IMG/VR virus record: IMGVR_UViG_3300043427_001585
Coordinates: 1-64,000 of that record
Direction: 5' to 3' (one strand)
Source of the DNA: a virus
DNA length: 64,000 bases
Part shown: in pieces, positions 3-54,767 of the stretch
Layout: each line of letters opens with the position of its first letter
Numbering within the stretch: position 1 is the first letter of the stretch
The notes under the pieces: generated by a model
What the model was told of the DNA's origin: nothing
Database searches by the model: none
What the model saw: only the letters and a program-made list of their open reading frames with translations
Position numbers and translations under genes: made by a program

Positions 3-740
3 AAAGCATTTCAAAAGAAACACGGACTTACCGCTGATGGTATTGTTGGTGAATCCACATTAGTTAAATTGGGTCTCAAAGCTCCAGCAGCTCCTGCTGC
101 TAAGCCCGCTGCTAAACCTGCAGCAGCCGCTCCTGCAAAACCAAGTGCTGCTGCAAAATACAATAAAGAATCTATTGAAAAAGCAGTAAAAGCAAAAGGA
201 TACAAGTGGTTTGAAGGTAAAGACCTTGAACTTAATATCGTAGGTGTTCGTAATTCAGATACAGGTACAAAAGTAACCAATGCTTTTGATGATAGAATTA
301 CCGTATCATACAAAGAAAATGGTGTTTGGGTTTACAATGAATGGATGAATACTACCGACCCTGGTACTAAAGGTGTTAAAGAATATCACAACGCAGCTGG
401 TGTTGCAAGATTGGTTCCTGGTCAGTATGTTGACTCACACGCGTTGGGTCTACACCAAGGTAAGTATGAAGCCCTAAAACAATTTGGTAAGGTAAAAGTT
501 TATCGTGATGCAAATCGTGATATGAACTATGATGAAACCAAAATCCAAGAAGGTGTATTTGGTATTAACATCCACAAAGCAGGTGCTGATTCTACATTTG
601 TAGAAAACTGGTCTGAAGGATGTCAAGTATTCAAAAGAGCGGCTGACTTTGAACAATTTATGACAATTGCAAGAAAAGCAGCGGCTGCTGGAAATAAGAA
701 GTTTACTTATACTTTGATTGAATCAAAAGATATCGTTTAA
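3..740 (+). CDS. Peptidoglycan-binding, L,D-transpeptidase-like cell-wall enzyme (5'-partial)
   Basis: The reading frame is open from base 3, so the gene starts upstream; the TTG at 69 is not its start. The first codons read FQKKHGLTADGIVG, the classic PG_binding_1 repeat that binds peptidoglycan. An Ala/Pro/Lys linker (bases 78-150) follows. The C-terminal domain holds a His (573-575) in INIHKAG and a Cys (621-623) in SEGCQVF, similar to the His...S-H-G-C active site of YkuD L,D-transpeptidases, with E replacing the second H. The likely role is endolysin or virion-associated wall cleavage. Family knowledge supports wall binding strongly; the catalytic type is inferred. Confidence 0.7.
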   Translation, partial: KAFQKKHGLTADGIVGESTLVKLGLKAPAAPAAKPAAKPAAAAPAKPSAAAKYNKESIEKAVKAKGYKWFEGKDLELNIVGVRNSDTGTKVTNAFDDRITVSYKENGVWVYNEWMNTTDPGTKGVKEYHNAAGVARLVPGQYVDSHALGLHQGKYEALKQFGKVKVYRDANRDMNYDETKIQEGVFGINIHKAGADSTFVENWSEGCQVFKRAADFEQFMTIARKAAAAGNKKFTYTLIESKDIV

Positions 741-802
741 GATAGTTATTTAAAAGAGTTTTTTAAGAAGTTTCGGGTCAACAACTAATAGGACTTGAAA
801 CT

Positions 803-2722
803 ATGAAAAAATTATTATTCCTTTTATTAGGGATTTTATCAATTGGTGCTGTAGCACAAAATGGTAAGACCGAGATATTAGTGGCTCCAAACTCAAACAG
901 CCCATATATCTTGGTTGATACCTTGTTTACCCTTGAAGATACATCTGTAACTACGGATATTTACATTCACTTTGCAAATCCAACCGCAAGTAATGTAAAG
1001 GCAGTTCAGTTCAGATTGTTCTATGACAATACGAAGTTCTCAAATGTTCAGGTATTTTGGGGGCCAACCGCTCTTTCTATATCAGACAAGTATGGTTCCT
1101 TCTTCAAAAGTGGTGACTATGTGAATATTATTGGAACTTACACCGGAAACAATCAAAACTTTGATTGGTCTGATGGTGCTATGTTCAAAGTAAGATTAAC
1201 GCATGGTTCGGCATATCAAGGTGTGGTAAACTCAATGGCTACTACCGGTACAACTTCATACTCAAACCTTGCTACTACTGGAAATGGTACGGATGTTACT
1301 TTGGGATTATTCAATTATGGTGGCGCTTTCCAAATGCAACCAATCACATTCCCAATCAGAGTTAAAAACGCAGATGGTTCTGCAGCACAAGGTGTTTGGT
1401 TTTCAGCATCAAAAAGATTAAAGTCAACTCCGCAAGCAACTTGGCAACCAATTACATCTGACTCAACAAACGCATTGGGTTTAGTATCATTTACACATCC
1501 ACTTGATACCTCATATTGGAATTTAAAGATTACTGCTCAAACCGACACTATGGGTGATGGTGGTGCTATTTCAATTACGGATGCATACAAATTGGCAAAC
1601 CACGCTTCAATGCAAGATACTTTGAGTGGTATTGAATGGTATGAAGGTGATATCAACCAATCACAAACAGCAACAATTTCTGACGCATTTGCTGTGTTTA
1701 ATAGATTGGCTCTTCAGTCTACGGATTGGGATGGTTTATTCACCGGCGTAAACAACGTATCGGTATTATGGCCAAATGAGTACACTACTGCTGTATCAGC
1801 AACCGGTATTCCAGACTGGACTACTTCGCCAAGAAGATATCAAATTGATACTATTGTAAACTCACTTGACTCAATTAACCCATACATTTATGTAGTGGGT
1901 GACGCGACAACTACGGGCTATAACAACCCTGCGGTTATTATGGCAAAAATTGCAAACCCAGGCACCGGAACTGATTACATACTTGACCCAGCAGTTTATA
2001 TGGTCAATAGAGATGACACGGTTCAATTCCGTATTCCTAAATTGGTAATTGCAAATAATCAAATGGAAGTTCCTGTGACTATGTTCACATTTGGTAATAA
2101 GATTGGTGCTGCTCAAATGGGTATTGAGTTTGATACTACAATCTTCCAATTTAGTTCTATCAAAGTTGGTGATGATGTATCAAAATGGACATCATTAATT
2201 TCGGTAGAAAAGGGTAGAGTATTCTTCGCAGGACACGAAGACAAAATGAACCCATCGTTGGTTGAAACAATGACCAATCAATTTACATTTGTATTTAATG
2301 TTATCAATCCAATTGGATGGCAGACTTCACCTTTGAGAATCTTTGATAAATCTGCTGGTAATGAAAAGGCAGAAGACCTGTCAGTTAAACCATCACCAAA
2401 CGATGGTTCGGTAGTGAATAGAAACTCAATGAACCCTGACCTTGCTGAATTGATGACCGGATTCAAAGTGTATCCAAACCCTGTTACCGACCTTACCGAT
2501 GGTTGGTTAGTAATTGAACACTTTAACGAATATAGAAATTCTGACTTTACTGGTGTAATTTACAACATTAGTGGTCAAGTATCACAAGTTTACCAAACAA
2601 AGATTACCAACATTGGTTTCCAAGTACACGGAATAAATGTTAAGGACCTACCGAATGGAGTATACTTTGTTAAGTTAGTTACGGCGGATAGAGAAAAAGT
2701 TGTGAAAATTGTTAAATATTAA
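803..2722 (+). CDS. Secreted modular protein with T9SS C-terminal sorting domain
   Basis: A 639-aa protein beginning with a clear Sec signal peptide (MKKLLFLLLGILSIGAVAQ). Around residues 30-140 and 400-520 are two cohesin-like beta-sandwich stretches. Between them lies a carboxypeptidase-regulatory-like segment (about 190-250), then a dockerin-like stretch with GDINQSQTATISDAF. The last 85 residues (FKVYPNPVTD ... LPNGVYFVKL ... KVVKIVKY) match the type-A T9SS sorting domain by which Bacteroidota export and anchor surface proteins. Such cargo is unusual in a phage. It heads the envelope cassette. Domain limits are by eye; the sorting domain is the firmest call. Confidence 0.8.
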   Translation: MKKLLFLLLGILSIGAVAQNGKTEILVAPNSNSPYILVDTLFTLEDTSVTTDIYIHFANPTASNVKAVQFRLFYDNTKFSNVQVFWGPTALSISDKYGSFFKSGDYVNIIGTYTGNNQNFDWSDGAMFKVRLTHGSAYQGVVNSMATTGTTSYSNLATTGNGTDVTLGLFNYGGAFQMQPITFPIRVKNADGSAAQGVWFSASKRLKSTPQATWQPITSDSTNALGLVSFTHPLDTSYWNLKITAQTDTMGDGGAISITDAYKLANHASMQDTLSGIEWYEGDINQSQTATISDAFAVFNRLALQSTDWDGLFTGVNNVSVLWPNEYTTAVSATGIPDWTTSPRRYQIDTIVNSLDSINPYIYVVGDATTTGYNNPAVIMAKIANPGTGTDYILDPAVYMVNRDDTVQFRIPKLVIANNQMEVPVTMFTFGNKIGAAQMGIEFDTTIFQFSSIKVGDDVSKWTSLISVEKGRVFFAGHEDKMNPSLVETMTNQFTFVFNVINPIGWQTSPLRIFDKSAGNEKAEDLSVKPSPNDGSVVNRNSMNPDLAELMTGFKVYPNPVTDLTDGWLVIEHFNEYRNSDFTGVIYNISGQVSQVYQTKITNIGFQVHGINVKDLPNGVYFVKLVTADREKVVKIVKY

Positions 2723-2736
2723 TAAAAAGGAAGAAT

Positions 2737-2985
2737 ATGGCATTTGTAGACATCTTCAAAGACAAAAACGATTTTAATGAAAAAACAATCGTGGGATTTC
2801 TGTCATTTTCAGTTATGGCTATCTTCGCCGGCGCTGATGTTGTAACAGGTATTATGGGTCAAGAGTTAATCATCTCTGACACTATTTTTAATTCATTCGT
2901 AATGATTACTTTGGGTGCTTTTGGTATTGCTGAAGCTGGAAAGATTTTCGGTGGCAAGAAAAAAGATGAAGAAGAATTAGGTTAA
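2737..2985 (+). CDS. Small two-helix membrane protein, holin candidate
   Basis: An 82-aa protein with two hydrophobic helices (about residues 18-36 and 48-68) and a charged Lys/Glu tail (GGKKKDEEELG). Size, topology and tail resemble class II holins, and it lies 2 kb from the peptidoglycan enzyme, so a role in releasing that enzyme is plausible. It could instead be a membrane partner of the next gene. It is preceded by AAAAGGAAGAAT. No holin family is specifically recognised. Confidence 0.45.
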   Translation: MAFVDIFKDKNDFNEKTIVGFLSFSVMAIFAGADVVTGIMGQELIISDTIFNSFVMITLGAFGIAEAGKIFGGKKKDEEELG

Positions 2986-3005
2986 TTTAAAATAAGGAAG
3001 AAGTG

Positions 3006-3398
3006 ATGTCAGAAGAACAACAAGAAGGCGGACTATCGGGTCTTAAAAAGACCATCCTTGGAGTAGCTGGAACTGCTGTTACAGGTTTTGGAATCTGGGC
3101 AAGTACAAACATCAATAAGATTTTTGGTGTAGAGGAAGAGTCGGATGTAAAAACTGAACAAGTTCAACAGGTTCAACAACAACCTGCTGCAGCTCCCGTG
3201 GTTATTAACCTTGAAAATAACAACACTCAACAGCAAAGTTCTGGCGGTGGTACTCATACAAGAGAAATCATCAGAGAAGTTCCTGCTCAACAACCTGCAG
3301 CAGCTCCCGCTCCTGTGGTTGAAAAGAAGGAAACTCCTGCTGAAAGAATCGCAAGACTAAAAGCTGAAAAAGAAGCTAAAAACGCGGGTGGTCAATGA
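3006..3398 (+). CDS. Single-span membrane protein with Pro/Ala/Gln-rich tail
   Basis: About 130 aa. One hydrophobic segment (about residues 17-34) is followed by a long low-complexity region rich in Q, P and A (QVQQVQQQPAAAP, VPAQQPAAAPAP) and a Lys/Glu/Arg C-terminus (ETPAERIARLKAEKEAK). The layout resembles an inner-membrane protein with an extended periplasmic arm, as in i-spanins or TonB-like proteins. A GTG codon at 3003 is an alternative start. It overlaps the CsgG-like gene by 4 bp, suggesting coupled translation. Function is unknown. Confidence 0.6.
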   Translation: MSEEQQEGGLSGLKKTILGVAGTAVTGFGIWASTNINKIFGVEEESDVKTEQVQQVQQQPAAAPVVINLENNNTQQQSSGGGTHTREIIREVPAQQPAAAPAPVVEKKETPAERIARLKAEKEAKNAGGQ

Positions 3399-4135
3399 GA
3401 ACTCGTAAAGATGTAATTTTAGAGTATATCTTTGCACCATTAGGTGTGATTATGGTGGTGGGTGGCTTACTTTTTGTAGGAACAATGGCTACTTCGTGTA
3501 AGTCATCTATTTCTACGGAAGCATACAAAGCGGAGTTTGAACAAGCACAACCATTAAATACACTACCGGCTTATACTGGTGAAAAGCAAGTGGTTCAACT
3601 TGCTACTCTTAATGTTAACAAAGAACTTTGGGATATGTTCCCTGAACTTCGTGACAAAAGAGTTGGTATGGGTGTATCAAATCGTATTGTAGAGAACTTT
3701 GAAACAACTGGTAGGTTTACTTATGCTGAAGAAAAAGAAGCAATTGTAAACCAAATGTTGGATACTTGGGAAAAAGACTTACAAGGTCTTGGTGATGGTA
3801 AAACAAAATTAAATGTTGGTTCTGTGGTATTGCCAAAGTATATTGTGTATGCTGAAATCTATGACTTTTCGGTATCTTACGCTGAAACTTACGACAAGGG
3901 TAAATTGAATAAAACCAACACTACAATTATTGGTATCCAAATCCGTATGGTAAATGTGGATAATTCTCAATACATTGTAGCATCAGGTCAAGGAACATCT
4001 ACTCAAGTTGGTGAGGGTTACTTCAAAAACCCAACTATGGGGTTTGATAACTCTACCGTAGGTATCTCTACACAACGCGCTTTGGAGGTTGCTACTATGA
4101 ACCTCATCAAGCGTATGGAACAAAATGGATGGTAA
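3395..4135 (+). CDS. CsgG-like outer-membrane lipoprotein
   Basis: A 246-aa protein with a hydrophobic N-terminus ending in a lipobox-like TMATSCKSS, so Cys35 is probably lipidated. The body has the CsgG pattern: VVQLATLNVNKELW, then RVGMGVSNRIVENFETTGRF, then a region resembling the CsgG VLPKYIVYAEIYDF beta-strand block. CsgG forms the nonameric outer-membrane channel that secretes curli subunits. Here the gene is followed by exported proteins, which fits a secretion or surface-display role. Homology is by pattern only; pore formation is inferred. Confidence 0.6.
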   Translation: MRTRKDVILEYIFAPLGVIMVVGGLLFVGTMATSCKSSISTEAYKAEFEQAQPLNTLPAYTGEKQVVQLATLNVNKELWDMFPELRDKRVGMGVSNRIVENFETTGRFTYAEEKEAIVNQMLDTWEKDLQGLGDGKTKLNVGSVVLPKYIVYAEIYDFSVSYAETYDKGKLNKTNTTIIGIQIRMVNVDNSQYIVASGQGTSTQVGEGYFKNPTMGFDNSTVGISTQRALEVATMNLIKRMEQNGW

Positions 4136-5576
4136 ACATTGGATAACTCTCCTATTTCTCGTATTGGGGTTTGGTGTAGCTGCACAAACATATCAGTATA
4201 GCTACACCGACCCTTGTACAGGGATATTAAACACAGTTACAATTACACAACAAACGGGTTCGGTTACATTATTTTACGCCGGACAATATCAAACTTTTAC
4301 AGCGGCTCAATTACAAGCCGGAGCATATGAAGCTTGGATAGCTCAAATCAATGCTCAGTTTCCACCTGGTTCAAATCCTTGTGCTGGGAATGGTGGTCAA
4401 AACGCAAATAATTCCAACGTGAGTATTGGAACCAATTCAGCAACAAATATTACAAACATCATAGGTATAGCTACTTCAGTTAGTGGTTCTGCTTCGGGCG
4501 CTGCCGGAAATATTGGCGGTGGTATGGGTGGTGGTGATATGGGCGGTGGTGGTTCAAGTGGTGGTGACCCCGGTGAAAACGGAGCCGGTGGGTCATCTTC
4601 ATCAAGTGGTGGCTCCGGTGGTGGTTCAAAACCACCTACCGGTGGAAGTGGTTCATCAAGTGGTGGTGGCTCTACCAGCGGTAGTGGTTCTACTGGCGGT
4701 GGAAGTGGTTCGGGTGGTGGTCAACCATCCGGTGGAGGTCAACCCGCGTCTGGTCAAGGTGAGGGTGGTGGTGGTTCCGTTCCATCATCCGGTGGTGGTG
4801 GTGAAAGTGGTGGTGGAACCGAGCAAGGTGCTGTGGGTGAGAGTTCTACAACAACCGCAAGTGGTGGTGAATCCGAATCATCTTCATCCGAAGGTGGTGG
4901 TGGAGGTGGCGGTAGTCGTCAAAAATCAAAACAAGAGCGTATTGCAAGAGGTGCTTTAATTGGGGCTGGTGATATTGTTGTGATTAGAAACTCCGCTAAT
5001 ATCCAAGATACGGGTAAAGATAACCTAAAAGTAAACCTATCACTAACGCACGTTAATACAAAACAAAACTTTATTAAAGGTATGGCATTAAACTATCAGA
5101 CAGGTGAGAATGTAGCTAATGTGACTTTGTATGGTAGTTTTAAATCAAAAGGTTATATGGGTGTCTTTTCAAACTCATTTATGACCAATTTTCAAACCGA
5201 TTGGTTCAATACAGGTTCATTCTTAAATGCTCAAAAAACAGGTCCTGCGACCTGGTTGCTTGGTTTAAACTATACATTTGGTTCGTTGGGTAAAAGTGAT
5301 TTCCAAAACTTTTCTCTTGTTGGCGGAACCTTTACAAATTTTAAAGGTGGTAAATCATTTAGTTCTAATGTAATGATGTTAGGTATTTATAGTCCCTATG
5401 TGTTTTATTACGAAGGTCAATGGTATAAATCAGGAGTTATATTAGTTCCTATGATGAATATGGATTTTAAATTAACTGATAAGTTTAAATGGAGCATTTC
5501 ATTTAGTGGTGCTTATCAGCTTAATGCTGAAATTTTAAATTACCAAGTAATGACCGGAACAAAGATGTTGTTATGA
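4125..5576 (+). CDS. Gly/Ser-rich exported protein with beta-rich C-terminal domain
   Basis: A 483-aa protein with signal peptide (WITLLFLVLGFGVAAQ), a short Cys-containing N-terminal domain (about 22-90), a roughly 150-aa Gly/Ser low-complexity region (about 120-265), and a C-terminal region (about 285-483) with alternating aromatic strands (VTLYGSFKSKGYMGVFSNSF; WLLGLNYTFGSLG) that looks like an outer-membrane beta-barrel or large beta-domain. It overlaps the CsgG-like gene by 11 bp and is probably translated with it. The Gly-rich stretch resembles an adhesive linker. No named family is recognised. Confidence 0.65.
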   Translation: MDGKHWITLLFLVLGFGVAAQTYQYSYTDPCTGILNTVTITQQTGSVTLFYAGQYQTFTAAQLQAGAYEAWIAQINAQFPPGSNPCAGNGGQNANNSNVSIGTNSATNITNIIGIATSVSGSASGAAGNIGGGMGGGDMGGGGSSGGDPGENGAGGSSSSSGGSGGGSKPPTGGSGSSSGGGSTSGSGSTGGGSGSGGGQPSGGGQPASGQGEGGGGSVPSSGGGGESGGGTEQGAVGESSTTTASGGESESSSSEGGGGGGGSRQKSKQERIARGALIGAGDIVVIRNSANIQDTGKDNLKVNLSLTHVNTKQNFIKGMALNYQTGENVANVTLYGSFKSKGYMGVFSNSFMTNFQTDWFNTGSFLNAQKTGPATWLLGLNYTFGSLGKSDFQNFSLVGGTFTNFKGGKSFSSNVMMLGIYSPYVFYYEGQWYKSGVILVPMMNMDFKLTDKFKWSISFSGAYQLNAEILNYQVMTGTKMLL

Positions 5577-6565
5577 GATGGTTTATTTTTATTCTTATTT
5601 TTATACTCACAGTATCAATTGAGGGGTATTCTCAAACCTTTACTCATTCGGGAACTATTAGAACTGAAGGTAACATAGTTGTTCCAGGAGTAACAGTTAA
5701 ACTTTATAAAAGAACTACTCCTGTAATAACAGGATTCACAAACCAGCAGAACTACAACGGACACTCTTACTATCGGTCAACAAGTTCTGCCTTCTGGTCA
5801 GCAGCCAAAGCTGCTTGTGAGAATATGGGTGGACATTTAGTAACAGTAACTTCAGCAGCTGAAAATAGCTTCATCTTCAATCTATGGCCATCTGGCTGGA
5901 TTGGACTAACAGACGAAGTAACGGAAGGACAGTGGAGATGGGTTACAGGAGAAACTTATTCATACTCATCTTGGAATAGCGGTGAACCAAACAACGCAGG
6001 TAATGAAGACTACGTTCAGTTTGTTGGTGGTGGTAGATGGAATGACCTACCTAATAATGTATCTCTACCATATGTGTTAGAATTTGAATACATAGTAACG
6101 ACTACACCCTGGGTGTTACAAGCAACATCAGTCACAAATGCTAGCGGTCAATATTCATTTAGTCAGGTCACTAACCCTTCAGTTGAATGGTATATTGAAG
6201 TAGTTGTTCCAACAGTCTCATCCAACCCAGCGATATCTGATTTTGATGGTCCAAGTGATGTTATTTTGGGTAGAACTGCTTTAAAACCATATCACTATCA
6301 CAAATATGATTTGAGTGGTGAGGGTAAAATTACAATTGCAGATATTTGTATAATTGCTGATAGAATAAATGGAACACCTTTTACAAAGAATACTTTACTC
6401 TTTACAAATACCCAATGGACAAGTTTAAATAGTGGAACTTCTGATTTAAGAGCCACAATACCCGGACTTGCAACTTCATACACATTTACTCCCACATCGG
6501 GCGGAACAAGTAATTTCTATTTATTATCACCGGGTTATAACAATCAGTCAGCCTTGACCTATTAA
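5573..6565 (+). CDS. Exported C-type lectin-domain protein with dockerin-like module
   Basis: A 330-aa protein with signal peptide (FIFILIFILTVSIEGYSQ). Residues about 60-165 form a textbook C-type lectin-like domain: two Cys-region strands, WIGLTDEVTEGQWRW, EPNN (the EPN calcium/mannose-type motif) and RWNDLP (WND motif). It appears inserted into a carboxypeptidase-regulatory-like beta-sandwich: VPGVTVKLYKR before it and ATSVTNASGQYSF after it. A dockerin-like Ca-binding stretch (YDLSGEGKITIADICIIADR) ends the fold. It should bind a glycan at the cell surface or periplasm. The lectin fold is well supported; the ligand is unknown. Confidence 0.8.
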   Translation: MRWFIFILIFILTVSIEGYSQTFTHSGTIRTEGNIVVPGVTVKLYKRTTPVITGFTNQQNYNGHSYYRSTSSAFWSAAKAACENMGGHLVTVTSAAENSFIFNLWPSGWIGLTDEVTEGQWRWVTGETYSYSSWNSGEPNNAGNEDYVQFVGGGRWNDLPNNVSLPYVLEFEYIVTTTPWVLQATSVTNASGQYSFSQVTNPSVEWYIEVVVPTVSSNPAISDFDGPSDVILGRTALKPYHYHKYDLSGEGKITIADICIIADRINGTPFTKNTLLFTNTQWTSLNSGTSDLRATIPGLATSYTFTPTSGGTSNFYLLSPGYNNQSALTY

Positions 6566-6566
6566 A

Positions 6567-7706
6567 ATGAAATGGATACTAACATTATTACCATTTGTCA
6601 CTTTTGGACAAACCATAACTCTGACTCCGATTGGAACGCAGGATGTTAGTGGTATACCTGTTCAAGTTGAACACTATGTAAATTATGTTCCAAACCACTC
6701 CATCTCATCGGTAACATATAACCCATTAGGAACAACTGGAACATCAGTATCATTGGGTGATGATGATAATATAGGCCCGTTTAACATAGGTTTTAACTTT
6801 GAGTTCTATGGGCAAACCTTTTCACAATTTAGAATATGCACCAATGGATTCATTACATTTGGTGACCCATCTGGAACTTATTCTCCCACATCGTTTCCAT
6901 CATCAGCAACTCCCAATGGTGTAGTAGCAGCATATTGGACAGACCTATTTCCAACCTCTGGTTATTATGTGAGATATAGAACCGAAGGAACTGCTCCAAA
7001 TAGACAATTGGTTGTAAGTGCTCACCTAACCTATTATTCAAATAGAAATGCTTGGGTAGATTATCAGATTATTTTATTTGAAGGAACTAATAAAGTTCAA
7101 ACCACAATCACATCACAAGGTTGGACTACCACAGCAACTCAAGGTGTGGAGAATCACCAAGGAACTTTAGCAGCAACTCCACCTGGTAGAAACCTTACAT
7201 CATTCAATGGTGCAGGAACTACATTTGAATACACCCCGATGCCACCACTTCAAGGATGGGAATCACAAGGAACAAAAAATACAAATACAAGTGGACAGGT
7301 ATCCTTTACTAACTCACTTAACTGGCCATATAGAGTAACCATAAACACATCACAAAAAACACACTTAATAACTGATTTTAGTTTAAACTATATGATGTTT
7401 ATGAAAGCTGGATTAGGACCATTACAAGATTGGGACTTCTATACTTGTGATTGTGATAATTCATCAACATTTAATTGGGAAGATATTTATTGGTGTTATA
7501 TGTTGTATTCAAATGGGTATTACCATAACAAATATGTTTTCACTCAAGCTGAAAAAACAACAATAGAAAGTGATGTAAATACTAATTATTATAACACTTA
7601 CTTTCCAACTCAAGTAAGAACCATTGAAAATCAAAATCAGTTTTATATAATGGGAACCGGAATCCACAATGCTTCCCCTAATTCTAATGTAGGAAAAATA
7701 CAATGA
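6567..7706 (+). CDS. Exported nidogen-like protein, paralogous in layout to the lectin gene
   Basis: A 379-aa protein with a short signal peptide (MKWILTLLPFVTFGQ). Its frame repeats that of the preceding gene: a beta-sandwich start (VSGIPVQVEHYV), an inserted domain of about 200 aa, a continuation (TKNTNTSGQVSF), then a dockerin-like stretch (DCDNSSTFNWEDIYWC). The insert (FNFEFYGQTFSQFRICTNGF ... VVAAYWTDL) resembles NIDO or related adhesion domains found in Bacteroidota surface proteins. The likely role is surface recognition. It abuts its neighbours by 1-4 bp and is probably co-translated. The insert family is tentative. Confidence 0.6.
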   Translation: MKWILTLLPFVTFGQTITLTPIGTQDVSGIPVQVEHYVNYVPNHSISSVTYNPLGTTGTSVSLGDDDNIGPFNIGFNFEFYGQTFSQFRICTNGFITFGDPSGTYSPTSFPSSATPNGVVAAYWTDLFPTSGYYVRYRTEGTAPNRQLVVSAHLTYYSNRNAWVDYQIILFEGTNKVQTTITSQGWTTTATQGVENHQGTLAATPPGRNLTSFNGAGTTFEYTPMPPLQGWESQGTKNTNTSGQVSFTNSLNWPYRVTINTSQKTHLITDFSLNYMMFMKAGLGPLQDWDFYTCDCDNSSTFNWEDIYWCYMLYSNGYYHNKYVFTQAEKTTIESDVNTNYYNTYFPTQVRTIENQNQFYIMGTGIHNASPNSNVGKIQ

Positions 7707-8101
7707 ACGCAGTAATATGTTATTTTATTTCATCGGTAATTTCATTAGCAACTCTACCTGGAGTTCCTGCTGAAAAGTTAACCTTTGGTGCAAGACAAAT
7801 CACAACCGAGTTAGTCGGTCAGAAATATTCATTATGTGATGATGGTAAGCCCGTAGAAGTAACCATCCTTTCGGTAGATGCTCCAACCACTGGAATTCAA
7901 ATTGGACCCTTTGAATTCAAATCAAAGAAGACAATTGTAAAAACCAAAGTGGTAATGAATGGTAAAGAGTATTATGGTATCGGAAAAGCAAAAACAAATG
8001 TTGCTGCTACGCTAATGCAATTACAAGATGAAGAACTACCATTTGAAAGAACCGAGTTTTCAGTAGCATTAAAAAAATCATTGGAAGACGCTCTTAACTG
8101 A
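7703..8101 (+). CDS. Small possibly exported protein of unknown function
   Basis: A 132-aa protein with a hydrophobic N-terminus (ICYFISSVISLATLPGVPA) that may be a weak signal peptide, followed by a mixed alpha/beta domain (VEVTILSVDAPTTG; IVKTKVVMNGKEYYGIGKA) and an acidic helical tail. It overlaps the nidogen-like gene by 4 bp and closes the envelope cassette. By position it could be an accessory factor for the CsgG-like channel, but no CsgE or CsgF signature is visible. Function is unknown. Confidence 0.55.
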   Translation: MNAVICYFISSVISLATLPGVPAEKLTFGARQITTELVGQKYSLCDDGKPVEVTILSVDAPTTGIQIGPFEFKSKKTIVKTKVVMNGKEYYGIGKAKTNVAATLMQLQDEELPFERTEFSVALKKSLEDALN

Positions 8102-8112
8102 TATTTATTAGT

Positions 8113-8931
8113 ATGAAAAAACTCATCAATGAATGTATCATAGTAGCCAAGAGAGTTGGTGATACTCTTGTTATGGCGAAGAACCGAGATAGGGCTTATA
8201 AGCCCGAACTTGAAGTGGTTCACGAAATTATTGATGGAGTTGAAGTAGCATATCTACGAGATACTATTACGGATTGGTCCGAAGGTATGAACGAGTATGG
8301 TATTGGTATTCTCAATACAGCCCTTATGGTTGGATACGATGAGAACGAAAAGAAGATTGTGAAGAAGGGTGGTAAACCCTCAAAAGATGGTGCAAGAATT
8401 AGACAAGCACTTTCAAAGAAAACACTTAAAGACACGCTTGTTCAAGTTGTAAGGGGTGATGGTGGTGTAAAGGGTCACACTATGATTGGAACACCACAAA
8501 AGGTAGTTTCGGTTGAGATGACCTCTAAACACTCACCTAAAATTGATGTTAGAGATGTTGACTCTGAAAACTTTGTAAGAACAAACCACGGATATCATTA
8601 TGGTGATGCTGGATATACGGAAGGACCTGATTACCTTTCATCCAAAATCAGAAAGATGTCTGCTGAAAAGGTGGTAGACAAAGTTGAAGATGCTATTGAG
8701 ATTTTAAGAGGATTGAGAAAACAATTGTATAAACAAGACTCACCTCTTAATATGAGAAGAGATACACCAAAAATGTCCACTTCATCTCAATTGATGTTAA
8801 ACCTTACTGATTTAGTATTAGAATTGGATTTCTTTGAAAGTAAGGTAGAAAAGTTTCACGGAATTGTGAATAAACTTCCAGAGGGTAGAACTCCGAGGAT
8901 AAAAGTAGTTGTGAAAAAAATCAATCTATAA
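8113..8931 (+). CDS. Ntn-hydrolase-like protein (C45/NRDE type)
   Basis: A 272-aa protein with Cys8 near the N-terminus followed by two strands and AKNRDR, the arrangement of N-terminal-nucleophile hydrolases in which a short propeptide is removed to expose Cys. Further family-like signals are EGMNEYGIGILNTAL and FVRTNHG. These enzymes cleave amide bonds in penicillins, bile acids or peptides. In a virion-assembly region it might act as a maturation enzyme or on a cell-wall amide; the substrate cannot be read from sequence. The C-terminal 80 residues are helical. Confidence 0.6.
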   Translation: MKKLINECIIVAKRVGDTLVMAKNRDRAYKPELEVVHEIIDGVEVAYLRDTITDWSEGMNEYGIGILNTALMVGYDENEKKIVKKGGKPSKDGARIRQALSKKTLKDTLVQVVRGDGGVKGHTMIGTPQKVVSVEMTSKHSPKIDVRDVDSENFVRTNHGYHYGDAGYTEGPDYLSSKIRKMSAEKVVDKVEDAIEILRGLRKQLYKQDSPLNMRRDTPKMSTSSQLMLNLTDLVLELDFFESKVEKFHGIVNKLPEGRTPRIKVVVKKINL

Positions 8932-11771: not shown

Positions 11772-12524
11772 ATGAAGCTAATATCTCTTATAGTAGAAGG
11801 AATGTACGACAAGTTAGTTGGTGAGATAAACAAAGATATCTTTAAGACCATCAAATCCGCTATGCTTAAAAGCGGAACGCAAGAATCTCCAAAGAAGTAT
11901 AAAGGTTACGCAGTTCGTAAAGAACCCGTGTTAACAATGTCTGACTTGTTTTTTTCAGAAAGACGCTCATTGTATGTTGGTGAATATAACGATAGCGTAA
12001 GTGGTGTAGATGTTGAAGTAGACCTGAAGCTTGCAATCAGCGAAGAGGGTGTAACTCCTGGCAAATTCTTTATAGATGGTTCGGCCGAAGCTGATTCTGA
12101 ATATCCTTCAATTGAAGTTCATATTGGTATTCACCCATCGGATGGTGAAACTATTTTTTCAAAGATTCAGCCAGTTCTTCGTGACTTGGTACGACACGAA
12201 GTAGAACACTTGACTCACGGAAGAAAGTCAGCGTCTGCAAAATCATCAAAGGTTTTGAGGGGTGATGAAAAAATGAGAGTTAAAATTAGACAAAATCCTG
12301 AATTATATTACAAGTATTATCTTTTACCAAAAGAGGTAGATGCAAACATTCAAGGATTATATTCAAAGGCAAAGACATTGAAGAAACCATATCAACAAGT
12401 GGTTGATGACTATTTGGATTCTTTAGTTGATGATGGTATTATTACACCCAAGAACAGAATGTTAATTTATAAAACGTGGAAGAACCGAATCACAAAAATC
12501 GGTGGTATTCCTAATTTGAAATAA
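11772..12524 (+). CDS. Putative zinc metallopeptidase (HExxH)
   Basis: About 250 aa. The motif RHEVEHLTHG (codons near 12192-12220) is a zincin HExxH site inside a helix, in a protein that also has an N-terminal helical part and a helical C-terminal third (KPYQQVVDDYLDSLVDDGI). It may process a virion or host protein. A TATATTTG box lies directly at 11763-11770, so transcription could begin inside this gene and use the ATG at 11802. Peptidase activity is predicted from the motif only. Confidence 0.55.
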   Translation: MKLISLIVEGMYDKLVGEINKDIFKTIKSAMLKSGTQESPKKYKGYAVRKEPVLTMSDLFFSERRSLYVGEYNDSVSGVDVEVDLKLAISEEGVTPGKFFIDGSAEADSEYPSIEVHIGIHPSDGETIFSKIQPVLRDLVRHEVEHLTHGRKSASAKSSKVLRGDEKMRVKIRQNPELYYKYYLLPKEVDANIQGLYSKAKTLKKPYQQVVDDYLDSLVDDGIITPKNRMLIYKTWKNRITKIGGIPNLK

Positions 12525-12528
12525 CACT

Positions 12529-13389
12529 ATGGATTTCACTAATAACCCACATTTAAAAGAGTATCTCCGTAAAAAAGAGATGGAGTTGGAAGCTAAAAAA
12601 GCTAGTCAAAAACGAATTGTTGAAGACAAAGCTCGTAAAAAGTGGTTGGAATACCAAAAACATTTAAGAAACACATTGGGTGGTGGGTACGTTCAGAGTT
12701 CACTTTCATTCATAACTGATGATTTGGTATTATATTACGATGCGAATATGCTAACTTCATATAATGGAGTTGGTTCTACAATACGAGATGTTTCTGGAAA
12801 CAATAGAAACGGAACAATTGTAGGTTCTCCTAATTGGAATTCCAATGGGTGGTTTGATTTTTCAAATGATTATATTGTTACTCCAGATTTAGACCAAGTG
12901 CTGACTATTGGGGATGAAGCTCATTCCATAGAGGTTTGGGTGTATCCGACAAATAATGGTGTAATTGCATCTTACTTGGGAACTGCTGTTGCTGACGATA
13001 ATTACCATTTTAGTGCTATTGAGTTAGTATCGGGTCAAGTGGAATTTGGATTATGGAATGGTACAGCTATCACAAGTACAGGTCCAACCGGAGCTCTTAC
13101 ATTTAATGAGTGGCATCAAATAGTATTAACATACAATGGAGATGGTTCTCCTGTTAAAGGTTATGTTGATAGTGTTTTAGTAGACCAAACCTCAAATATG
13201 AACTTTCACTCACCAATGGATGACTCCTTGCCTAGCTTTCATATTGCTTTTGGTGGTTTAGATTCTACTAGCCAAGGAGATGGAACTTATTTTGATGGTA
13301 GATTTGGTATTGCTAGAATTTATGGAAGAGCCTTAACTCAAGATGAAATAATTCAAAATTATAGAAGAAACATTAGTTATTATAGATAA
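12529..13389 (+). CDS. LamG/concanavalin-like jelly-roll protein with coiled-coil N-terminus
   Basis: A 286-aa protein. Residues 10-45 are Lys/Glu-rich and helical. Residues about 65-280 read as a LamG-like jelly roll: LVLYYDANMLTSY, VSGNNRNGTIVGS, SIEVWVYPT, NEWHQIVLTYNGDG, KGYVDSVLVDQ and FGIARIYGRALTQDEI. Such domains bind sugars on phage decoration and fibre proteins. There is no signal peptide, so a virion role is likelier than export. It overlaps the next gene by TAATG. Confidence 0.75.
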   Translation: MDFTNNPHLKEYLRKKEMELEAKKASQKRIVEDKARKKWLEYQKHLRNTLGGGYVQSSLSFITDDLVLYYDANMLTSYNGVGSTIRDVSGNNRNGTIVGSPNWNSNGWFDFSNDYIVTPDLDQVLTIGDEAHSIEVWVYPTNNGVIASYLGTAVADDNYHFSAIELVSGQVEFGLWNGTAITSTGPTGALTFNEWHQIVLTYNGDGSPVKGYVDSVLVDQTSNMNFHSPMDDSLPSFHIAFGGLDSTSQGDGTYFDGRFGIARIYGRALTQDEIIQNYRRNISYYR

Positions 13390-21597: not shown

Positions 21598-22024
21598 TAG
21601 TTTACCAAAGGTAAAGAATGTAAACAAGGGTAAATACCGCCTGAAAAAACACAAATACAAATTGTGGGACATTGTGGTATTGAAATGGATTGGTGAACGA
21701 GAAATTGGATTTATTTCTGAATTGAAAATGAATCGTGAAGGATTCGCCACATATACAATTCGCTCAGTATCAAAACAAGGTTGTATTTATTATGACCTTG
21801 AAGTAGATGACCCTACCGACCCGTATTGTTACATATCAACAATTTTAACTGAAAGCATAACCGATGGTGAAAAAACACTGGCAAACGAACGACTACATTC
21901 CCACCAAGGTAGGACTAATGTCGTTTCAGAAACACAACCCAAGCGCTTATCTAACCAAGAGCGTTCTGAATTGGATAACCAAATTAACAAACAAAAAGAC
22001 TTTTTAGATGAAAAGTTTTGGTAG
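21581..22024 (+). CDS. Unknown protein with an SH3-like barrel look
   Basis: 147 aa. The first 90 residues are beta-rich (KYKLWDIVVLKWIGEREIGF), like a small barrel; the C-terminal 50 are helical and charged. It overlaps the glycosyltransferase by 17 bp. No family is recognised. Confidence 0.5.
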   Translation: MKTNTDSLPKVKNVNKGKYRLKKHKYKLWDIVVLKWIGEREIGFISELKMNREGFATYTIRSVSKQGCIYYDLEVDDPTDPYCYISTILTESITDGEKTLANERLHSHQGRTNVVSETQPKRLSNQERSELDNQINKQKDFLDEKFW

Positions 22025-23478: not shown

Positions 23479-25077
23479 ATGGGAAAGCAAGTATTTCACG
23501 GAAAACAATCAAGAGAAAAGCTCTTGGAAGGTGTAAACGAATTGGCTAATGCGGTCAAGGTAACACTTGGACCTCGTGGTCGTAATGTAATCATTCAAAA
23601 AGATTCAGCACCTCACATCACAAAAGATGGTGTTACGGTGGCTAAATCTATTGAGTTTAGTGATGCAGCCAAAAACTTGGGGGCTCAAGTTATTAAAGAG
23701 ACTGCCCAACAAACCGCAGACCACGCAGGTGATGGTACAACTACATCTACTGTATTGGCTCAATCAATCTTTAACCAAGGTATGGCTGTGGTTGAAATGG
23801 GTGCTAATCCAATCTTACTTCGTAGGGGTATGGGAACTGCTGTGAGTGAAATCACAAAAATGTTGACCGAAGAAATCTCAATTAAAGTTGAGGACAACGA
23901 ACAAGTAAAACAAGTTGCAACCATTTCTGCAAATGGTGATTCGGTGATTGGCGGTATGATTGCTGACGCAGTTAAGGAAGTAGGTCGTGATGGTGTAATC
24001 ACGGTTGAAGAGGGAAACTCAAATGAGGATGAACTTGAAATCGTAGAAGGACTTCAGTTTGATAATGGATATCTATCTCACTACTTTATCAACAACCAAA
24101 CAAAACTCAATTGTGTTATTGATGAGCCAGTTGTATTGTTGTATGATGGTAAGATTTCTACAATGGACCAAATCATTCACGTTCTTGAAGCGGTATCAGC
24201 TCAAAGCAAACCAATTGTAGTTGTTGCTCACGATGTAGAAGGTGAAGCTCTTGCAACAATGGTTGTAAACTCCGTTCGTGGGACCCTACGAGCTCTTGCT
24301 GTAAAAGCTCCGGGCTTTGGTAGTGAACGAACCGAAATCCTTCGTGATATGGCTGCTCTATTGGGTGGTAAGATGTTCGGAACTATTGACGCTGACTTGG
24401 AAGACGCAACTTTGGAAGACTTGGGTTCTTGTGACAAAGTAGTATCTAACAAAAAAGAAACTACCCTAATTGGTGGTCACGGAGACGCAGACGCTTTGAA
24501 ACTTCGTATTGACCAAATTAAGAACGAAATTTCCGAACAAAAGTCAGACTTTGAAAAAGAAAAACTCCACAAGCGTTTATCTAAATTGAGTGGTGGTGTG
24601 GCTGTAATCCGAGTAGGTGCTCAATCAGAGGTTGAAATGAAAGAAAAGAAAGACCTATTTGATGACGCACTCCTTGCAACTAAAGCTGCTTTGGAAGAGG
24701 GTATTGTCGCAGGTGGTGGTGCTGCTTTGTATCATTGCTCCAAGGACATTAACGAACCAAAGGGTGATGAACAATTAGGATACGCAATTGTAATGAAGGC
24801 TTGTAAATCTCCAATGGAAGCAATCCTAAAGAACGCAGGACTTGACCACAACAAAGTTTTTGGGTTATTGGACGCAAACTACACTTCAGACACTTCTATG
24901 GGTTACGATGTAGTTAGTGAACAATTGGTCAATATGATTGAAAAGGGTATCATTGACCCAACAAAGGTGACTCGTACCGCTATTGAAAAAGCTGTTTCGG
25001 TTGCTGGAACACTACTTACTACTGAATGTATGATTGTAGAAGAGCCGGCAGAGAAAGAAAGTGAAGCGAAATCTTAA
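23479..25077 (+). CDS. groEL: GroEL chaperonin
   Basis: A 532-aa protein, near the usual 545. The ATP-binding GDGTTT (Asp85), the ATPase Asp near residue 396 (DDALLATKAALEEG) and VAGGGAAL are all present. It lacks the C-terminal Gly-Gly-Met repeat and ends in a Glu/Lys tail, and its apical domain differs from bacterial forms. It folds proteins with the GroES encoded at 22.25 kb. Phages encode chaperonins to fold capsid proteins; substrates here are unknown. Confidence 0.95.
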   Translation: MGKQVFHGKQSREKLLEGVNELANAVKVTLGPRGRNVIIQKDSAPHITKDGVTVAKSIEFSDAAKNLGAQVIKETAQQTADHAGDGTTTSTVLAQSIFNQGMAVVEMGANPILLRRGMGTAVSEITKMLTEEISIKVEDNEQVKQVATISANGDSVIGGMIADAVKEVGRDGVITVEEGNSNEDELEIVEGLQFDNGYLSHYFINNQTKLNCVIDEPVVLLYDGKISTMDQIIHVLEAVSAQSKPIVVVAHDVEGEALATMVVNSVRGTLRALAVKAPGFGSERTEILRDMAALLGGKMFGTIDADLEDATLEDLGSCDKVVSNKKETTLIGGHGDADALKLRIDQIKNEISEQKSDFEKEKLHKRLSKLSGGVAVIRVGAQSEVEMKEKKDLFDDALLATKAALEEGIVAGGGAALYHCSKDINEPKGDEQLGYAIVMKACKSPMEAILKNAGLDHNKVFGLLDANYTSDTSMGYDVVSEQLVNMIEKGIIDPTKVTRTAIEKAVSVAGTLLTTECMIVEEPAEKESEAKS

Positions 25078-51380: not shown

Positions 51381-53426
51381 ATGACTAAATCAAAATCTTC
51401 TTACTCTTCGTTCTGGCTTGACAAGTCCCTATTCCTTGATGAGGACACTACCTATGTCACCGATATAGAACGAAAGTCCTCTGACCTTATGAAATTGGTA
51501 TCCTACAAACGTGCGGTATCCAACTTCGTTAATATTGTAACGGGTATGCCAATTAAGGTCACCTTTGATGAACGGGGTTCCGACTCTTACACCGATGGTA
51601 CGGAAGTAGTTATCTCCGCTAAGATGGATGATGCTGAATTTGACCCCACGGTGGGTCTGGCGCTTCACGAGGGTTCTCACATCAAACTTACTGACTTTGA
51701 GACTCTTCGTAAAATGGCTCGTGATAATTACTTTCCATCTACTATTGATGTGAACTATCTTCGTGAAAAGATGGGTCTTGAACTTGAGTCAAGTGTTTCA
51801 TCCGCTATTTACGACCAACTGAAAGACCTGCTTAATGTGGTTGAGGACCGTAGGATTGATAACTACATCTTCCAAACCGCTCCGGGCTATCGTGGTTACT
51901 ACGAGTCAATGTACGATAAATACTTCAACGCCAAGATTATTGATAAAGGTCTTCAGTCTTCCGAGTATCGTGATGAGAATTGGGATTCTTACATTTTCCG
52001 AATTGCAAACATCACCAACGCAAATCGTGACCTTGACGCTTTGAAGGGTCTTCGTGAGATTTGGAACATCCTTGACCTTAAAAATATTGGTCGGTTGAAA
52101 ACTACTTGGGATGCTCTTGAGGTTGCAGGTGCTGTGTTTATGGTTTACTTTAAAAATTACATTGAGGCTAAAGAACAAGGTCAAGGTGGTGGTGATAATC
52201 AGACCGAACCAAAAGAACACGAAATGAACGGACAAGCCGATATGAGTGGTGATATGGATGACCAATCATCGGAAGGCGGTATGTCTTCTAATATGGATAT
52301 GAGTGGTGAACCTACCGATAGTGGTGATGAGACTGAAGTAGAACAACTCAGCCCATCTCAAGTTGAACAACTTAAACGGGCTATTGAAAAGCAGAAGAAG
52401 TTTCAAGAAGGTGAGGTCACTAAAAAGAAAATTGGTAAGAGTGAAAAGCGTAAGGTAGAAGCTCTTGACCGAGCTGATATTGATGTTGAGGTCACGGGTA
52501 AGGATATGACTCGTAAGTGGAATAGTTCCGCTTCGGGTGGAACCCAAACCTATGTGGTTCGTAACTTTAGTAAAGAGTTGATTTCTACCAATCAGTTTCC
52601 AATTCTTACGGATTCTGTCTGGCGGACTGAACAAAATGTGAAAAACACCCAACGGGGTATTCAGTTGGGTATTCTCTTGGGTAAAAAACTCAAGACTCGT
52701 AATGAAGAACGCTCTTTGATTACCCCTCGTATGAAGAGTGGTAAATTAAGTGCTCGTATGATTCACGAGATTGGGTTTGGTAACTTTGATATCTTTGAAC
52801 GAACGATGGTCAACAAATCCAAGCCCGCTGTGATTCACATCACTATTGACGCTAGTGGTTCAATGGGTGGTGATAAGTGGAACAACACCCAAGTCGCAGC
52901 GGTTGCTATCGCTAAGGCGGCTTCAATGACCCAAAACATTGATGTGGTAATTTCTTACCGAAGTACAATGGGTTATGGTAGTGATTATGTACCATTCATC
53001 TTGGTGGCTTATGATAGTCGTAAGGACAAGTTCTCTAAAATTCAGAACTTATTCCACCACATTACTCCAAACGGAACGACTCCTGAAGGTTTGTGTTTTG
53101 AGGCTGTGATGAAGGATATTATCGGATACGCTAAAGGTAGTGACGCTTACTTTATCAACTTTTCCGATGGATGTCCGACATTCTCAAACAACGACATCTA
53201 CTACGAAGGTCAAGATGCTTACAATCACACTGCCGCTCAAGTTAAGAAAATCCGCCAAGCCGGAATCAATGTCCTTTCTTACTTCATCACCGAAGGTTAC
53301 TACGGAACCGACGCACAGGCCTTCAAAACGATGTATGGTAAAGACGCTCAGTTCATCAATGTGACCGAGGTGGCTCCTCTTGCTAAAACACTTAACTCAA
53401 AGTTTGAGGCAAATTTAACAATTTGA
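51381..53426 (+). CDS. CobT/VWA-type protein with metallopeptidase-like N-terminus
   Basis: 681 aa. The N-terminus contains LALHEGSHI (HExxH at His96). An acidic, Met/Gly-rich linker (about 270-320) follows, then helical segments and a C-terminal VWA domain with MIDAS DASGSMGG from Asp490, and a downstream DGCPTF. This pairing with the next gene mirrors the CobT-CobS/VWA-MoxR modules, which remodel proteins or insert metals. The phage target is unknown. Confidence 0.8.
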   Translation: MTKSKSSYSSFWLDKSLFLDEDTTYVTDIERKSSDLMKLVSYKRAVSNFVNIVTGMPIKVTFDERGSDSYTDGTEVVISAKMDDAEFDPTVGLALHEGSHIKLTDFETLRKMARDNYFPSTIDVNYLREKMGLELESSVSSAIYDQLKDLLNVVEDRRIDNYIFQTAPGYRGYYESMYDKYFNAKIIDKGLQSSEYRDENWDSYIFRIANITNANRDLDALKGLREIWNILDLKNIGRLKTTWDALEVAGAVFMVYFKNYIEAKEQGQGGGDNQTEPKEHEMNGQADMSGDMDDQSSEGGMSSNMDMSGEPTDSGDETEVEQLSPSQVEQLKRAIEKQKKFQEGEVTKKKIGKSEKRKVEALDRADIDVEVTGKDMTRKWNSSASGGTQTYVVRNFSKELISTNQFPILTDSVWRTEQNVKNTQRGIQLGILLGKKLKTRNEERSLITPRMKSGKLSARMIHEIGFGNFDIFERTMVNKSKPAVIHITIDASGSMGGDKWNNTQVAAVAIAKAASMTQNIDVVISYRSTMGYGSDYVPFILVAYDSRKDKFSKIQNLFHHITPNGTTPEGLCFEAVMKDIIGYAKGSDAYFINFSDGCPTFSNNDIYYEGQDAYNHTAAQVKKIRQAGINVLSYFITEGYYGTDAQAFKTMYGKDAQFINVTEVAPLAKTLNSKFEANLTI

Positions 53427-53469
53427 TAACATTAGACGCTTGTATATTCCGAATAATTTCGTATCTTTG
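53415..53469 (+). promoter_or_regulatory. Promoter with twin boxes
   Basis: TTAACA at 53415, ATAACA at 53426, CTTG at 53439, TATCTTTG at 53462-53469. It drives the AAA ATPase. Confidence 0.85.
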
Positions 53470-53495
53470 TTAAGTAATCAGTTAATCACTCTTTT

Positions 53496-54767
53496 ATGAA
53501 AAACCAACGCTTTGTTTATGGTTCAGTTGTTGAGAAAAACGGAATCCTCCTTTTCTCTGATGTGGAAGGTAAATTGTATAATTTGCCAGAGTTAAATGAA
53601 AAGGGAAGTCCCCTTTACAAACGAGCCCGAGCGGCTGCTAACGCTCCTGGCAAGTGGGCTTTTAAAGTTCGTGTTGTTGGGACATTAAAGAGTGGTTCTT
53701 TGGGATTCACTCGTGTTGGGGTTGAGATGCTCGCTGGAGCTGAACCCGTGACCAACTTTGATAAACCAAATGGTGGTCTTGAATCTTATCTTTACAATTC
53801 TAATCCTACTACCGAACCTATGGTAACTAATGTTCCTGAAGATGTCCTTAACTTTATTCACAATGAAGCCGAGGGTCTCAAACCCAAGATGTTGTTTATG
53901 AACTCACTCAAGTGGAAATACTTGGTTCGTAACATCATCCGTGGTAAGAACATTATGATGACCGGCCCTGCTGGTTGTGGTAAGACTATGGCTGCTAAGG
54001 CGGCTGCTAACTCCCTTGAGGGTTACAACACCTTCATCATCAACTTGGGTGCTACACAAGACCCACGAACGACCTTGATTGGTAATACTCAATTTGATAC
54101 CACGAAAGGTACGGTGTTTAACTCATCACCATTTGTTAAGGCGATTCAGACTCCCAACATGGTGATTGTGTTGGATGAGATTACTCGTGCTCACCCAGAG
54201 GCTTGGAACATTCTGATGACGGTACTTGACCAAGGTCAACGCTACCTACGATTGGATGAGGCTGCTGACGCTCCTGTGGTTCGTGTCGCTGATGGTGTAT
54301 CGTTTATCGCTTCCGCTAACATCGGTAACGAGTACACCGCTACACGAATGCTTGACCGGGCTATCCTTGACCGATTCACTATCATTGAGATGGATACCTT
54401 GACCAAAGAAGAAGAGACCCAACTGCTTCAGATGATGTATCCTTCAGTTGAGGCTGAGTTGATTGCAAGTGTGGCTGAGATTACTTCAATGACTCGTAAC
54501 GAGGTCAAAGGTGATTCTCCCAAACTTACCAACTCACTATCTACACGGGCTGCTGTGGAGATTGGTTCACTTCTCTACGATGGGTTCTCTCTTGAAGAGG
54601 CTGCTGAAATTACCATCTACCCATTCTTTGAAGAAGCCGGTGGTGCTCAATCTGAACGAGTCTACATCAAGCAGTTCGTTCAAAAGTTTATCAAGACTAC
54701 ATCTACCGAAGATATCTTCAATGTGGATGTTGATGTGGAAACTTACGATTACTCTAATCCTTTCTAA
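53496..54767 (+). CDS. MoxR/CobS-type AAA+ ATPase
   Basis: 423 aa. Walker A GPAGCGKT at residues 157-164, Walker B VIVLDE near 227, and an Arg finger region (RMLDRAILDRF). It is the ATPase partner of the VWA protein; separate promoters set their ratio. MoxR proteins activate or remodel large complexes. It overlaps the next gene by one base. Confidence 0.88.
   Translation: MKNQRFVYGSVVEKNGILLFSDVEGKLYNLPELNEKGSPLYKRARAAANAPGKWAFKVRVVGTLKSGSLGFTRVGVEMLAGAEPVTNFDKPNGGLESYLYNSNPTTEPMVTNVPEDVLNFIHNEAEGLKPKMLFMNSLKWKYLVRNIIRGKNIMMTGPAGCGKTMAAKAAANSLEGYNTFIINLGATQDPRTTLIGNTQFDTTKGTVFNSSPFVKAIQTPNMVIVLDEITRAHPEAWNILMTVLDQGQRYLRLDEAADAPVVRVADGVSFIASANIGNEYTATRMLDRAILDRFTIIEMDTLTKEEETQLLQMMYPSVEAELIASVAEITSMTRNEVKGDSPKLTNSLSTRAAVEIGSLLYDGFSLEEAAEITIYPFFEEAGGAQSERVYIKQFVQKFIKTTSTEDIFNVDVDVETYDYSNPF

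Follow-up and report, generated by a model that had tools for sequence, protein, structure and literature searches.

A phage gene cassette with cohesins, dockerin-like modules and a type IX secretion sorting domain that may display lectin-type proteins on infected Bacteroidota cells

We analysed a 64,000-nucleotide stretch of viral DNA (the window; positions 1–64,000 of the 72.5-kb IMG/VR record IMGVR_UViG_3300043427_001585, our G000) and focused on a cassette of eight genes, g1–g8, at positions 803–8101. In the reading that we favour, with moderate confidence and on the basis of sequence comparison, the cassette encodes a phage-borne cohesin–dockerin system that is linked to the type IX secretion system (T9SS) and displays putative glycan-binding modules on the surface of infected cells. 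The original prediction had proposed a dedicated export and display system, but overlooked the feature that organises it, namely the cohesins and a common dockerin-like module. Several features support such a dedicated cassette, namely Bacteroidota-type signal peptides, a T9SS domain, a CsgG fold, an outer-membrane barrel, swappable carbohydrate-binding modules, rigid synteny and, in a deep branch, PorV-family genes; from these we infer the joint role of the proteins. We assign the window to a T4-like phage of the Bacteroidota, a relative of Flavobacterium phage immuto, because a 168-kb contig (L001) carries the same cassette with 99–100% protein identity and has a terminase that is 59% identical to that of immuto.

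The first gene, g1 (803–2722, + strand, as are all eight), encodes a putative scaffold of 639 amino acids. Pfam and an alignment of homologues delineate a signal peptide, a first cohesin-like domain (Coh1), an X/CnaB-like and dockerin-like module, a second cohesin domain (Coh2) and a T9SS type A sorting domain. Coh2 (2012–2437) is a predicted cohesin, with a Pfam match of 9.5e-7 and profile matches to PDB cohesins 2vn5 (4.7e-6) and 1g1k (7.3e-6) across the whole domain. Coh1 (872–1336) belongs to a set of homologous domains in which 8 of 21 members match Pfam Cohesin. The sorting domain (2468–2713) matches Por_Secre_tail (PF18962, 3.4e-10), TIGR04183 (3.9e-10) and PDB entry 8glj (2.4e-6). Among 26 g1 homologues, Pfam detects Por_Secre_tail in all 26, Cohesin in 25 and Dockerin_1 in 5. 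Together with a Sec signal that is followed by an invariant glutamine (Q19) in the g1 alignment, the sorting domain marks g1 by its sequence as a T9SS type A cargo, in agreement with the original prediction. Sec signals are also seen directly on g5, g6 and g7, as had been claimed, and in three of the family alignments the glutamine at the cleavage site never varies; a glutamine at this position is the Bacteroidota Q-rule (PMC10653852).

Profile comparisons indicate that g1, g6 and g7 have one homologous X-like/dockerin-like module in common (1334–1837, 6068–6562 and 7209–7703, respectively). The hhalign values are 99.5% for g1 against the g6 C-terminus, 98.7% for g6 against g7 and 95.4% for g1 against g7. 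Dockerin_1 is the most frequent Pfam match of the module (13 of 26 members at E ≤ 1, best 5.7e-6), and dockerins form the largest group among its weak PDB matches, with the CipA X-dockerin (2b59) at the top. The first F-hand repeat is degenerate and the second is canonical. The second calcium loop (1649–1684 in g1, 6308–6343 in g6) has Asp12 in 77/77 sequences (g1 family 26/26, g6 33/33, g7 18/18), and positions 1, 3 and 5 are mostly D/N/E, N/D/S and D/N/S; the g1 ligands D1, N3 and D12 are present in 26/26. In immuto, g1 is split into two genes, which encode a 363-residue protein with Coh1 and the X-dockerin-like module and a 243-residue protein with Coh2 and the T9SS domain. Cellulosomes divide adaptor scaffoldins from anchoring scaffoldins, and by analogy the two immuto proteins would represent one of each.

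The other two carriers of the module are putative adhesins. g6 (5573–6565) consists of a signal peptide, a C-type lectin domain and the X/CnaB-like and dockerin-like module; the lectin domain (5792–6076, residues 74–168) had been named in the original prediction and is recognised by Pfam (Lectin_C, PF00059, 8.6e-17). g7 (6567–7706) has the same arrangement, with a swappable N-terminal beta domain in place of the lectin. The description of g7 as nidogen-like could not be confirmed, as the protein has zero Pfam matches at E ≤ 1. In relatives of g7, the N-terminus is replaced by PA14 or other domains, and the N-terminal domains of 38 adhesin homologues include C-type lectin (12), PA14 (9), GEVED (3) and laminin-G (2) types.

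None of these 38 homologues contains a catalytic domain according to Pfam, which bears on the idea that the cassette is a host-derived nutrient module, that is, a mini-cellulosome whose carbohydrate-binding proteins improve polysaccharide capture during infection. The cohesin–dockerin architecture would suit such a role, and the T9SS cargo of Cryophage includes glycoside hydrolases (PMC7468147), but with no enzyme among the adhesins we consider this explanation very unlikely.

Sequence comparison between loci shows that near-identical phages exchange the lectin part and retain the core. L003 and L025 have g1 and g5 proteins that are 99% identical and adhesins with unrelated N-termini. In L041 and L047, g4 is 100% identical and the adhesin C-terminus 86%, and the N-terminus has been replaced (33%). 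L013 and L025, conversely, carry the same adhesin (98/93% identity) despite a core that is only 65–85% alike. A diversity-generating retroelement is an unlikely source of this variation, since reverse transcriptase PF00078 is absent in 12/12 records, some of which are fragments. In two loci (L011, 12095–13843; L027, 12101–13870), a laminin-G-type domain is apparently inserted within the C-type lectin domain. L013 has an optional extra gene between g5 and the adhesin (12179–13003), which encodes a barrel-like exported protein, and a gap of ∼800 bases at this site in L002, L003 and L019 suggests the same gene there.

The eight open reading frames (ORFs) lie where the original prediction had placed them and show four short overlaps. 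The cassette genes are under purifying selection (ratio of nonsynonymous to synonymous substitution rates of 0.04–0.12 against the nearest relative), and order and strand are kept in 78 viral loci from IMG/VR with at least 4.5 kb of flank on each side; these ORFs are therefore not chance frames. The original prediction had called for a search for this gene order in other phages, and the synteny is clear: the members lie on one strand in 78/78 loci, and 57 of these have the exact order g1–g3–g4–g5–adhesin–g8. g5 is present in 78 loci, g8 in 77, g1 and g3 in 74 each and an adhesin in 69. With the g4 protein, and then with alignments built on it, we retrieved 27, then 314 and finally at least 571 g4-encoding IMG/VR stretches. 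Among 50,697 phage records, g4 matches a single species, immuto, whose database record already labels the lectin and a cohesin protein.

g4 (3395–4135) encodes a 246-residue protein for which an AlphaFold2 model (predicted local distance difference test score, pLDDT, 59) supports a CsgG fold. Foldseek ranks CsgG first in the PDB (4uv2, 1.1e-7, probability 1.00), followed by PelC and GNA1162; the top matches are all CsgG. PelC and GNA1162 have the CsgG fold, so that the ranking is uniform, although the confidence of the model is modest. The predicted structure had been set in advance as a test of the CsgG assignment, and the model supports the fold as proposed. The g4 sequence itself has zero Pfam matches, single-sequence and profile searches of the PDB are likewise without a match, and no match with E. 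coli CsgG alone is obtained by hhalign. Two bacterial homologues (L087 and L088, 40% identical), however, pass the Pfam CsgG cut-off of 20.8 with scores of 33.0 and 28.6. The BFVD database already has one viral protein named CsgG.

The regions of g4 that correspond to the CsgG hairpins are polar; they comprise 31 and 36 residues, where E. coli CsgG has 38 and 46. Because they are 7 and 10 residues shorter, it is uncertain from the model whether g4 itself forms a pore; by analogy to PelC, it may instead be a periplasmic ring. The barrel is predicted in the next gene. g5 (4125–5576) was delineated from a 33-sequence alignment and an AlphaFold2 model and has a signal peptide, a small N-terminal alpha/beta domain (4191–4358; pLDDT 73–89) with invariant cysteines C31 and C86, a Gly/Ser linker that is predicted to be disordered and a predicted 12-strand outer-membrane beta-barrel (4953–5567). 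AlphaFold2 strands and Foldseek likenesses to PgaA, TamA, NanC, KdgM, NalP and FapF define the barrel, which is the beta-rich end that had been noted for this glycine-rich protein.

The small protein encoded by g8 (7703–8101) is a relative of g4 and matches its C-terminal half (hhalign 90.6%, E 1.3e-6). In the clade of the window, g8 is without the Sec signal that its homologues in the immuto clade carry; the mature cysteine is conserved, and there is no in-frame upstream start codon. A narrow g4 alignment gave zero matches in bacterial genomes; a deeper one matched four contigs, two of which are probably phage contigs. The other two, L087 (9953–11322) and L088 (9974–11277), are apparent bacterial chromosomes in which a g8-like gene comes after a g4 homologue, which suggests, at the level of sequence, that the g4–g8 pair is derived from bacteria. 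The next gene in L088 encodes a transglutaminase-like protein of 825 residues that in part resembles anti-phage ProA (65 bits, against a cut-off of 1500).

A deep branch of the family adds a putative secretion helper. All six of its loci with upstream sequence (L098, L099, L101–L103 and L115) have a PorV/PorQ-family gene within the cassette, directly after a gene for a large T9SS-domain protein. The NCBIfam scores for this family are 103 bits in L102 and 125 bits in L099 (5646–6521), against a cut-off of 90, and the genes of the other loci were assigned by homology. The large T9SS-domain protein matches TIGR04183 above the cut-off in L102, falls below the Pfam cut-off in L099, and carries Pfam cohesin matches that are under the cut-off. 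Portal, holin and head genes in L099 identify it as a phage. The PorV/PorQ-family protein has zero matches among the 50,697 phage records.

The gene map of immuto argues against both a tail-fibre and a lysis role, since its cassette is distant from virion and lysis genes. The immuto cassette comprises genes 13–19 (10.5–16.4 kb) and lies among nucleotide-metabolism and small genes. The virion genes occupy roughly 78–101 and 119–160 kb, and the tail fibre and spike genes are separate from the cassette. We therefore think it unlikely that the lectin and the scaffold decorate the tail or capsid and that their signal peptides are misleading. In favour of this alternative, C-type lectin and laminin-G folds are frequent in phage receptor-binding proteins, but Sec signals with an invariant glutamine, a T9SS domain, a CsgG fold, an outer-membrane barrel and a PorV-family partner would serve no obvious purpose in a virion.

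Least probable of all is a lysis module in which g3, as a membrane protein, and g4, as a lipoprotein, would form an i-spanin/o-spanin pair beside an endolysin and a holin-like gene. g3 and g4 do overlap by 4 bases, and in many loci the endolysin (3–740 in the window) and the holin-like g2 adjoin the cassette. However, g4 is a 246-residue protein with a predicted CsgG fold, the holin (44 kb) and lysozyme (146 kb) of immuto are ∼30 kb and more from the cassette, and spanins would leave the cohesin, dockerin and T9SS parts unexplained. A spanin pair was rejected because g3 has no strong transmembrane segment and the immuto g4 has no lipobox; the lysis role that the original prediction had entertained is made unlikely by the immuto map. 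Of the two membrane proteins in that prediction, g2 (2737–2985, 82 residues) stands, with two hydrophobic segments. Because of these segments, its adjacency to the endolysin in many loci and its shifting position relative to the cassette, it is probably a lysis neighbour outside the display system. g3 (3003–3398, 131 residues), which lies upstream of g4 in 74/78 loci, has only a weak hydrophobic segment and a Pro/Gln/Asn-rich tail and is likely an envelope accessory.

Under the display reading, g1 would cross the outer membrane via the host T9SS and be anchored at the cell surface. Its cohesin or cohesins would hold the lectin-type proteins g6 and g7, which themselves lack a T9SS signal, by calcium-dependent cohesin–dockerin contacts. 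g4, g5 and g8, with g3, would form an outer-membrane pore and ring to export, position or anchor the lectin-type proteins. The displayed lectins may bind glycans of the infected cell or its neighbours, and here our confidence is lower. Most likely, they would block receptors against rival phages and against the loss of progeny by re-adsorption. Receptor masking is our first choice of purpose, with less confidence than the display itself, and adhesion is a close second.

Adhesion would involve the same export and display; infected cells would be attached to particles, to polysaccharide or to uninfected hosts, which would bring progeny into contact with new hosts. The displayed lectin, PA14, laminin-G and GEVED types are frequent in environmental adhesins, and the ligand modules differ between near-identical phages. 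These observations do not separate adhesion from receptor masking, and we regard adhesion as a possible purpose.

Several observations weigh against surface display. The individual PDB matches of the dockerin-like module are weak (E ≥ 0.013). Coh1 is more weakly supported than Coh2 (best Pfam Cohesin match 1.3e-4), has zero matches in the PDB and could not be established as a homologue of Coh2, since the two profiles fail to match each other by hhalign. The g4 model has low confidence, with template-modelling scores near 0.5 or below, and the lipobox of g4 is conserved in the clade of the window and absent in immuto; the lipoprotein part of the earlier CsgG-like lipoprotein claim therefore holds for the former only. 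The T9SS protein of the deep branch adjoins tail-like genes, a point that also favours the virion alternative. Finally, the g4–g5–g8 core may serve other cargo, because three deep-branch loci have these genes without a g1 or an adhesin recognised by the profiles that we used.

Relatives are known for every part of the cassette; as a combination, it appears to be new. In the cellulosome (X-dockerin of Clostridium thermocellum CipA with the cohesin of SdbA), a cohesin likewise resides on an anchored protein and X-like and dockerin domains on its partners, and immuto similarly keeps adaptor and anchoring scaffoldins separate. Unlike the cellulosome, the cassette is viral, has a T9SS domain in place of the SLH anchor and lectin-type partners without enzymes, and its binding is predicted only. 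Curli export (CsgG, CsgE, CsgF, CsgA and CsgB) shares the fold of g4 and a genetic link to secreted surface proteins. The cassette differs in its shorter hairpins, lack of curlin repeats, separate outer-membrane barrel protein and small g8 relative, and no cassette protein has a Pfam match to CsgE, CsgF or a curlin-repeat substrate. The CsgG fold of the earlier proposal is supported, a curli-like channel made by g4 is uncertain, and Pfam reveals no curli-like substrates. PelC, a Foldseek match of g4, and other CsgG-fold lipoproteins lie beneath an outer-membrane barrel, and it is conceivable that g4 and g5 form a comparable ring-plus-barrel in the style of PelC/PelB, except that the cargo would be protein.

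Among phages, Bellas et al. (2020) described Cryophage T9SS cargo with variable alleles and proposed a role in superinfection exclusion (PMC7468147). As in the cassette, T9SS-domain genes of Bacteroidota phages, PA14 included, vary between near-identical phages. There, however, each cargo has its own T9SS domain, the paper mentions neither cohesin nor curli (PMC7468147), and g4 matches immuto only in the phage collection. In crAss-like phages, T9SS sorting domains lie near or are linked to BACON proteins, which again ties carbohydrate-binding-type phage proteins to T9SS domains; scaffold or export genes are not reported in the passages considered (PMC6949934). In open-licence papers, we found no description of cohesin–dockerin or PorV in phages or of the combined cassette.

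Known changes that phages make to the host surface involve single small proteins. A conserved multi-gene cassette that seems to combine cohesin–dockerin joints with the T9SS, with g4 as widespread as noted above, would represent host-surface takeover on a different scale. As a tentative and broader proposal, to which we give somewhat less than even weight, a widely distributed class of Bacteroidota phages would build a modular cell-surface scaffold on the infected host from a scaffoldin that uses the host T9SS (with a PorV helper in one branch), dockerin-bearing lectins that pass through a g4/g5 pore and the exchange of lectin heads. If this is true, exchange of lectin heads between phages alters what an infected cell binds. 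The cassette would also be readily usable as a tool for modular display in Bacteroidota, and since a cultured pair exists (immuto and Flavobacterium sp. LMO8), it is directly testable.

Host-type promoters are scarce within the cassettes (4 inside and 51 outside), which hints at phage-controlled expression and proves nothing. The Bacteroidota-type motif TTTGG-N-GTATATTTG has 17 loose-pattern sites in the window (e.g., at 22017, 34087 and 48796), where 4.8 are expected, and 0 sites on the + strand within 740–8101. In immuto, genes 90–102 (49–60 kb, L084) form a glycosyltransferase and sugar-nucleotide gene block, a possible second surface-remodelling system. Two phage-like contigs with the cassette (L089 and L090) are binned into bacterial metagenome-assembled genomes of GTDB. 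Directly 3′ of the cassette, the window encodes a C45/Ntn-type acyltransferase-like protein (8113–8931; NCBIfam 1.6e-9, under its cut-off). Further downstream are a phage GroEL-type chaperonin (23479–25077), which immuto also has, together with GroES, and a CobT/CobS-like protein pair (51381–54767).

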